Assembly (NCBI RefSeq): GCF_018636735.1 | Contig: NZ_CP045200.1 | Span: 1,364,001 to 1,428,000 of the forward strand | Direction: 5' to 3' | DNA: 64,000 bases | Source: Erythrobacter sp. 3-20A1M | GTDB lineage: Bacteria > Pseudomonadota > Alphaproteobacteria > Sphingomonadales > Sphingomonadaceae | In this document: in pieces, positions 37,455-38,892 of the stretch | Numbering within the stretch: position 1 is the first letter of the stretch | Layout: the number at the start of each line of letters is the position of its first letter | The notes under the pieces: generated by a model | The model's database searches: none | What the model was told of the DNA's origin: nothing | Seen by the model: only the letters and a program-made list of their open reading frames with translations | Made by a program: the position numbers and the translations under genes

Positions 37455-38201
37455 TCAAGCGATGCCGAGCGCCTTGATCTTCGCGACGAGCGCATCGACA
37501 TCTTCCACCTTCTCGCCCGCCTGGCGGACCGGCGGTTCGGAGACATTGGTGGTAGTCAGGCGCGCCGCGATATCGACGCCGTAATCGGCGGGCGTCTTGG
37601 TATCGAGCGGCTTCTTCTTCGCCTTCATGATGTTGGGCAGGCTGGCATAGCGCGGCTCGTTCAGCCGAAGATCGGTCGTGACGATCGCGGGCAGGGTCAG
37701 CTTGACCGTTTCCAGCCCGCCGTCGATCTCGCGCTTCACGGTCACGCTGTCGCCATCCACCTCGACCGTATTGGCGAAGGTGCCTTGCGGACGTTCCATC
37801 AGTGCGGCCAGCATCTGGCCGGTCTGGTTCGAATCGTCCGAAATCGACTGCTTGCCCAGCATGATCAGGCCGGGCTGTTCCTCCTCGGCGATCTTCTTCA
37901 GGATCTTCGCGACGGTGAGCGGCTCGACCTCCTCGTCGGTCTCGACCAGGATCGCGCGGTCCGCACCCATGGCGAGCGCGGTGCGCAGCGTCTCCTGCGC
38001 CTTGGCCGGGCCGATCGACACGGCGACGATCTCTTCCGCCTTGCCCGCTTCCTTCAGGCGAATGGCTTCTTCCACCGCGATCTCGTCGAACGGGTTCATG
38101 CTCATCTTGACGTTGGCGAGATCGACGCCCGAGCCATCGGACTTGACCCGCGGCTTCACGTTGTAATCGATCACCCGTTTGACGGGGACGAGGATTTTCA
38201 T
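37455..38201 (-). CDS. etfB: Electron transfer flavoprotein subunit beta
   Basis: 248-residue partner of EtfA, which binds AMP. It begins [19 protein letters not shown]; the ETF-beta signature [20 protein letters not shown] and the C-terminal [16 protein letters not shown] are present. Upstream (38247 to 38262) lies a 16-bp inverted repeat that may be an operator. Divergent from the DUF6265 gene. Confidence 0.95.
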
Positions 38202-38246
38202 AGGGACTCCTTCCTCTCGAAACTTTCAGGCGGGACCTAACTTGCG

Positions 38247-38262
38247 CTTACGTAAACGTCAA
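38247..38262. promoter_or_regulatory. Inverted-repeat operator candidate upstream of etfBA
   Basis: CTTACGTAAACGTCAA consists of two seven-base half-sites, CTTACGT and ACGTCAA, separated by AA. The halves match at five of seven positions when inverted, with the ACGT core exact. It lies 45 to 61 bases upstream of the etfB start. It resembles the MerR-family LiuR type of operator that governs branched-chain amino acid and acyl-CoA catabolism in proteobacteria, a regulon that commonly includes etf genes. The match is from memory of the consensus. Confidence 0.45.
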
Positions 38263-38385
38263 CTTGGGTGTTGGCCTTCGCGCTGAATACGGGTGGACCG
38301 ACCGAGCCGTTCCCACATCGCGCATGCGTCTTTACGGTATCGCCGGGTTGGAGCAAGATCGCGCCGGTTCTGGGGAGAACGACCG

Positions 38386-38892
38386 ATGTTCCTGCGTGTG
38401 TTTGCCGTTGCCGCGCTGCTTTCGCTCGCCCAACCTGCATGGGGCGGAGAAACCCGATCGGCCGAGCCGGGGCAGGTTATCGCGCATGCGAGCCTGTCGG
38501 ACCTCGCATGGCTGGAGGGGCGCTGGCTCGGGCCGGGCATTGAGGATTTGCCCGCGCAGGAGGCTTGGCTGCCGCCGACTGGCGGAGTGATGGTCGGCAC
38601 TTTCATCCAGCAGGACCCTGATGGCGGCGTCATGTTCACCGAACACATGTATCTGATGCGCGAGGGCGACGGTCTGGTCCTGCGCCTCAAGCATTTCGGC
38701 CCTGAGCTCGAGGGCTGGGAGGACAAGAGCGAGAGCGTATCCTTCCCGCTTCTGGCGGTCGAGGGAACGACGGCGTATTTCGACGGCATGACCTATCGCC
38801 GCGAGGGCGACACCCTGCATGTCTTCGTCAGGATGGAAGAGGAAGGCGAGCCCGCGGGGGAACTCGCCTTCCACTTCTCCAGGGCCGACTAG
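38386..38892 (+). CDS. DUF6265 family secreted protein
   Basis: 168 residues from ATG 38386. A signal peptide ([16 protein letters not shown]) is followed by [13 protein letters not shown], the opening of the DUF6265 beta-barrel-like domain, and by [20 protein letters not shown] and [17 protein letters not shown]. Members are exported proteins of unknown function, perhaps lipocalin-like. An in-frame ATG at 38293 would place a long basic stretch before the signal peptide and is unlikely. It converges on sucC with 16 bases between stops. Confidence 0.8.

Follow-up and report, generated by a model that had tools for sequence, protein, structure and literature searches.

The window analysed here, a stretch of 64,000 nucleotides from the single contig (3,116,220 bases) of the Erythrobacter sp. 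3-20A1M genome, contains the genes for both ETF subunits together with a short palindrome upstream of etfB (Table 1). The etfB gene is the sole match to itself in the genome, with no second copy. Homologs of the divergent DUF6265 gene are found between etfB and sucC in five other genomes (G011, G021, G031, G032 and G034), and no evidence pointed to this gene as a target of the regulator discussed below.

Table 1. Features of the etfBA locus, in window coordinates.
Feature	Position	Strand	Basis or remark
etfA, ETF alpha subunit, 310 aa	36400..37332	-	Pfam ETF and ETF_alpha domains
etfB, ETF beta subunit, 248 aa	37455..38201	-	Pfam ETF domain
Probable etfB ribosome-binding site, AAGGAG	38207..38212	-	Sequence
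Proposed -10 element, TAGGTC	38234..38239	-	17 nt past TTGACG; 2 of 6 letters match TATAAT
Predicted LiuR-type operator box, TTGACGTTTACGTAAG read towards etfB	38247..38262	-	Sequence; 25.9 bits; kept before etfB in relatives
Proposed -35 hexamer, TTGACG, within the operator	38257..38262	-	Sequence; TA 17 nt on in relatives
DUF6265 gene, divergent, sharing the intergenic region with etfB	38386..38892	+	Upstream GTG at 38293 also open

A palindrome upstream of etfBA

The preliminary description of this DNA had reported a 16-bp inverted repeat at 38245-38264, 45 to 60 bases before etfB. The repeat is indeed present, at 38247-38262 (CTTACGTAAACGTCAA in forward-strand letters), and the distance was right, with 45 nt counted between it and the etfB ATG (38201, minus strand). 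The palindrome is imperfect, as CTTACGT and ACGTCAA pair at 5 of 7 positions while ACGT-AA-ACGT is perfect, and a repeat search found an overlapping 9-nt palindrome that is 89% complementary. On the minus strand the order is TTGACGTTTACGTAAG (38262 to 38247), CGCAAGT, TAGGTC, AAGGAG and an ATG ending at 38201.

Such a palindrome could have formed by chance around a -35-like TTGACG, with no regulator involved, and several counts agree with this explanation. Searching the window for TTKACGTNNACGTMAA with up to two mismatches retrieved one match as compared to 0.19 expected, a number that 18 of 100 shuffles also reach and that is not significant; across the genome the same threshold gave 20 matches, as compared to 21 with a reversed control pattern, and hence no excess; and nine congeners have no site before etfB. 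With up to one mismatch the genome contains two matches and the control none, and overall the crude pattern is only weakly significant in this genome.

Weight-matrix scores argue against chance. The matrix was built on sites from other genomes, 32 in all; one (before merR of G034) is letter-identical to the etf site. The etf site scores 25.9 bits, while nine other stretches of the same genome, 72,874 positions together, reach 5.9 at most. The other scored sites in the genome lie before an SDR gene (430808; 24.7 bits), before the regulator gene merR (3102069; 21.9 bits), at 2479748 (19.0 bits) and at 2843002 (16.6 bits), so that four sites of at least 19 bits are known. In 60 Mb of simulated dinucleotide-matched sequence, scores of at least 24.6, 21.8, 18.9 and 16.5 bits appeared 0, 2, 5 and 12 times, which scales to 0, 0.10, 0.26 and 0.62 occurrences in a genome of this size. 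Ten other genomes, each with a MerR ortholog, retain a near-identical site before etfB, and the same motif precedes merR itself. Matrix scores, simulation and the conservation of the etf site thus rule against a chance origin, which we find hardly credible. The palindrome alone is unremarkable, and the case for a real operator comes from the comparison across genomes: very probably it is a real binding site, as predicted, for a LiuR-type MerR regulator.

With up to one mismatch and within 200 nt of etfB, the site was found in 11 of 39 family genomes (the present one included), all 11 of which carry a merR ortholog. Split by presence of the ortholog, the count is 11 of 23 genomes with it, versus 0 of 16 without (Fisher p = 0.0009). 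Speaking against a simple link, 12 of the 23 ortholog-bearing genomes lack such a strict site. With a threshold of 16 bits, the figures are 12/23 and 1/16 (p = 0.0047). One genome, G028, has an 18.2-bit site before etfB, yet no merR ortholog was found there. Within the genus only the present genome, out of ten, has the etf site. The sequence TTGACCTTTACGTAAA is present in all nine congeners, and in G001 it was located before merR. Within the stretch seen, sucC is a neighbour of etfB in eight of the nine congeners, so that loss of the etf site in them, or its gain here, probably left the locus where it was. Aligning the region pairwise with one congener yielded nothing further.

We also observed that the etfB upstream regions without a LiuR box (L053 and L108-L115, which are the nine congeners, and L049 and L054) contain TTGAC and, after it, CCGGAACGCAA or a close variant, 60-130 nt before etfB. 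This element may be a replacement promoter.

The merR gene and its relatives

The merR gene lies at 3101597-3102058 on the minus strand of the genome (G000:C1), with the motif 10 nt before its start; the gene immediately after it encodes an acyl-CoA dehydrogenase of 601 aa. It is one of five MerR genes (PF13411) in this genome. Its product passes the cut-offs for PF13411, PF00376 and PF09278, identifying it as a MerR-type DNA-binding protein, and all NCBIfam metal models score it far under their cut-offs.

Among the 39 family genomes, the motif (up to two mismatches) precedes merR in 23 of 23 orthologs with at least 46% identity, while seven more distant family homologs, below 46%, have no upstream motif even with three mismatches allowed. 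The 46% cut comes from the first comparison; shorter alignments put two homologs, L101 and L107, at 48% and 46%, and their upstream regions score 12.0 and -3.2 bits, meaning that they have no site of the usual strength. Three weak second MerR matches without a locus stand outside these family-locus counts. Named genomes gave 578 confirmed matches, of which the best 80 all have a site of at least 16.0 bits (79 of them with up to two mismatches), and in 79 an acyl-CoA dehydrogenase gene lies next to merR on the same strand, the remaining one being at a contig end with 14 nt of flank; these 80 are the most similar matches and are silent on distant relatives. Among the matches listed, the closest named relatives belong to Tsuneonella, Qipengyuania, Erythrobacter and other Sphingomonadales.

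The preliminary description had called the repeat LiuR-like, and this was right: an identical 16-mer stands before the liuR of Vibrio campbellii, and the MerR protein encoded here groups with the Vibrio protein. The V. campbellii MerR is 45% identical to it, has TTTACGTAAACGTAAA and TTGACGTTTACGTAAG upstream, and is encoded between an isovaleryl-CoA dehydrogenase operon and a divergently oriented operon that includes a thiolase and another acyl-CoA dehydrogenase. In that species, liuR is located between liuABCDE and ivdABCDEFG (PMC3858670). In a 32-row tree, the Vibrio, Aeromonas, Azospirillum and Sphingomonadales proteins are split from two paralogs of the present genome and L106 at 100/99, with long branches flagged and with two further paralogs (L025 and L026) absent from the tree. 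Another Sphingomonadales clade (L101-L105, L107 and L334), which lacks the motif, falls into this group as well, so that the tree alone is no proof of orthology. In this motif-free clade, the region upstream of L101 contains TTACCCTATAGGTAAA instead, and the gene before L334 encodes a long-chain fatty acid-CoA ligase.

The position of the motif before merR suggests that its product recognises the LiuR box TTKACGTNNACGTMAA, and the regulator class named in the preliminary description, LiuR-type, was correct. In the gammaproteobacterial LiuR of Vibrio and Shewanella we find the same protein family and, in Vibrio, the identical upstream 16-mer TTGACGTTTACGTAAG; LiuR is called a repressor in PMC3223726. 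It differs in its targets, as LiuR controls branched-chain operons there (PMC3223726 and PMC3858670), whereas here merR is followed by an acyl-CoA dehydrogenase gene. Also alike is Azospirillum sp. B510, with genes for MerR, a thiolase, a 3-hydroxyacyl-CoA dehydrogenase/enoyl-CoA hydratase and an acyl-CoA dehydrogenase in a row, the motif upstream, and an acyl-CoA dehydrogenase 58% identical to the one adjacent to merR here. Kazakov et al. reportedly assigned fatty-acid genes to LiuR orthologs in alphaproteobacteria in 2009.

As a separate observation, a cysteine at position 116 of this MerR is conserved in 90% or more of the family proteins in an alignment of 21 of the 23 orthologs (without L087 and L089), and is absent in the Vibrio, Aeromonas and Azospirillum relatives. 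Cys116 could be part of a lineage-specific effector site.

Genes next to the sites

Sites of this type are enriched in relatives. The exact pattern occurs 24 times, versus once for the control, in 15 family genomes selected because they carry the ortholog; with up to one mismatch the counts are 73 versus 12 in nine of those 15 genomes, 90 versus 39 in 21 relatives, and 19 versus 14 in the ten genomes of the genus, where the motif is hardly enriched. Of 75 sites in relatives, 56 are intergenic where non-coding DNA makes up 12.5% (sites less than 12 nt apart were taken once, and the loci had been fetched for holding sites).

Within 150 nt of these sites we counted 65 genes, considering only genes of at least 240 nt. 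They include 8 with Acyl-CoA_dh_N, 9 SDR, 4 enoyl-CoA hydratase, 2 thiolase, 3 ETF and 4 MerR genes, and also 2 AMP-binding (acyl ligase), 2 MaoC, 4 zinc alcohol dehydrogenase and 2 TonB plug genes. The gene calls rest on a simple codon score and are sometimes wrong (in L118, and for one acyl-CoA dehydrogenase in L211). Among 20 site-linked proteins picked by eye were an ETF-QO, an acyl-CoA thioesterase and a malate synthase. In the control set of 54 window genes, no acyl-CoA dehydrogenase appeared among the 25 of 74 families listed. Sites in relatives thus precede beta-oxidation genes, as a predicted fatty-acid regulon should, and the enrichment before branched-chain or fatty-acid genes anticipated in the preliminary description holds in relatives outside the genus and hardly within it.

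In the present genome, the 20 matches with up to two mismatches comprise four intergenic ones (SDR, etfB, 2479748 and 2843002), 15 inside called genes, and the merR site, also intergenic. The link to acyl-CoA dehydrogenases is narrow here: the only one of 11 acyl-CoA dehydrogenase matches with a site is the gene behind merR, and no score above 5.9 bits was found in the stretches read for the other 10, or for any of the 7 enoyl-CoA hydratase matches. The expectation that ETF is induced together with the acyl-CoA dehydrogenases is compatible with the sites for the one behind merR, and finds no counterpart at the remaining ten. The regulon of this genome would consist of the merR-acyl-CoA dehydrogenase unit, the SDR gene, etfBA, and perhaps a TonB receptor/KAS III pair. 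The last of these was noted at the 19.0-bit site (G000:C1 2479748; L019:2749-2764), which lies between genes for a TonB-dependent receptor and a 3-oxoacyl-ACP-synthase-III-like protein; since TonB receptors follow sites in relatives too, it may be a further target.

Two other candidates were set aside. The 16.6-bit site at 2843002 lies in an apparent polysaccharide gene cluster and was taken as chance. The ETF-QO locus of this genome scores 5.5 bits at best; the ETF-QO gene of G045 does have a site. Thirty ETF-QO loci were scanned whole, and the start finder read all but nine. In four loci from other genera (L317, L322, L326 and L329) we noted a looser palindrome, TTGAC-N6-GTCAA, about 93-103 nt before ETF-QO, which is perhaps the box of another regulator.

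Control by leucine or isovalerate, as the preliminary description had proposed, is the point on which our analysis departs from it. The classical LiuR role would have the regulator answer to branched-chain amino acid breakdown, with etfBA induced for the sake of isovaleryl-CoA dehydrogenase. This enzyme is indeed among those that ETF serves, and the identical 16-mer in V. campbellii stands before a liuR-type gene between an isovaleryl-CoA dehydrogenase operon and an ivd-type operon. LiuR is placed under branched-chain amino acids in PMC5343134 and PMC3223726, and the listing in the former favours the earlier proposal in general, not for this genome. In the alphaproteobacterium Rhodospirillum rubrum, an 'ILV box' precedes a LiuR homolog and an ivd cluster, and that LiuR, different from the regulator described here, is tied to branched-chain genes and butyrate growth (PMC7238569). 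However, neither the isovaleryl-CoA dehydrogenase of the present genome (60% identical to the Vibrio one) nor its isobutyryl-type acyl-CoA dehydrogenase (50% identical to the Vibrio counterpart) has a site in the stretch read, the best score there and in the seven enoyl-CoA hydratase stretches being 5.9 bits. In addition, the neighbour of merR is the 601-aa acyl-CoA dehydrogenase, whose Azospirillum relative follows thiolase and 3-hydroxyacyl-CoA dehydrogenase/enoyl-CoA hydratase genes annotated for fatty acids. The site-free branched-chain stretches weaken leucine-only control, and we consider the classical role unlikely in this genome; the target pathway is more likely fatty-acid than leucine degradation, judging by the genes that the sites precede in relatives. 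As the stretches read show no site at liu/ivd branched-chain genes, we file the regulator as LiuR-type, and not as LiuR in the strict sense. PsrA, FadP and FadR are alike in regulating fatty-acid degradation genes and differ in belonging to the TetR and GntR families, not MerR (PMC5343134); the likeness drawn here is one of role.

Promoter layout and the proposed gate on ETF

The proposed -35 hexamer of etfB lies within the operator, and promoters of relatives show TAGxxx or TATxxx in the place of TAGGTC. Across 26 etf and merR promoters, TA occurs 17 nt after the first motif hexamer in 21, with 13 the next commonest spacing (n = 6), and at 19 nt in 3 and at 20 nt in none; the count covers 9 of 11 etf and 17 of 23 merR promoters, in the rest of which the motif is weak or in another register. 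The location of TTGACG within the operator, together with TA at 17 nt in most promoters, suggests repression by occlusion; an operator that extends over the -35 and most of the spacer would, on the simplest view, block RNA polymerase. This agrees with LiuR being called a repressor (PMC3223726). Two findings count against it: the -10 element of etfB is a poor one, and scanning 38100-38500 for consensus promoters called neither a sigma-70-type promoter nor TAGGTC.

The same regulator could instead act as an activator that untwists the promoter, as metal-responsive MerR proteins classically do across 19-20-bp spacers (PMC5045206). CueR, MerR and ZntR share the DNA-binding family of the protein encoded here and differ in activating across such spacers, the spacing here being 17. 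The 17-nt spacing in 21 of 26 promoters, with few at 19 and none at 20, speaks against activation across a long spacer. Moreover, if the promoter is made up of TTKAC and TA, the operator lies over the -35 and is not centred in a 19-20-bp spacer. We regard activation as improbable.

Our preferred interpretation, to which we assign a probability of roughly 0.7, is that the palindrome is the operator of a LiuR-type repressor, encoded by merR, that gates etfBA and is released by an acyl-CoA-type ligand. The site, its conservation, the accompanying merR gene, the spacing and the classes of target gene in relatives are computed results; for binding, repression, ligand and promoter we infer the following course. 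The MerR protein from 3101597-3102058, a regulator whose own gene is preceded by a site in Erythrobacteraceae-like and other Sphingomonadales, as are beta-oxidation genes, would bind the palindrome before etfB. Since the operator would cover the -35 TTGACG and the first 10 bp of the 17-bp spacer, the bound dimer should exclude RNA polymerase from the etfBA promoter. An acyl-CoA-type ligand would release MerR, and the cell's only ETF would then be made together with the merR-acyl-CoA dehydrogenase unit and the SDR (of the 3-oxoacyl reductase/3-hydroxyacyl-CoA dehydrogenase kind).

The etfBA site adds a sound new case to a type of gene control that is already known; in the open-licence literature we found LiuR together with etfB for Vibrio only, which is no proof of absence. 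The interpretation names a single candidate regulator, one of five PF13411 MerR genes, for the electron-transfer step common to acyl-CoA dehydrogenases, and shifts the inducer to be expected away from leucine and closer to fatty acids. It is tentatively conceivable, if rather doubtful, that this lineage has turned a LiuR-type repressor into a gate through which fatty acids control the only ETF. The other ETF-dependent dehydrogenases, including the operator-free branched-chain ones, would then depend on fatty-acid status via etfBA, and closely related genomes would have lost or acquired the gate, which one of the ten in the genus has. The promoter layout, with the operator over the -35, is an aid to recognising this regulon elsewhere in the Sphingomonadales, and the case would illustrate how a small regulon is rewired among close relatives.
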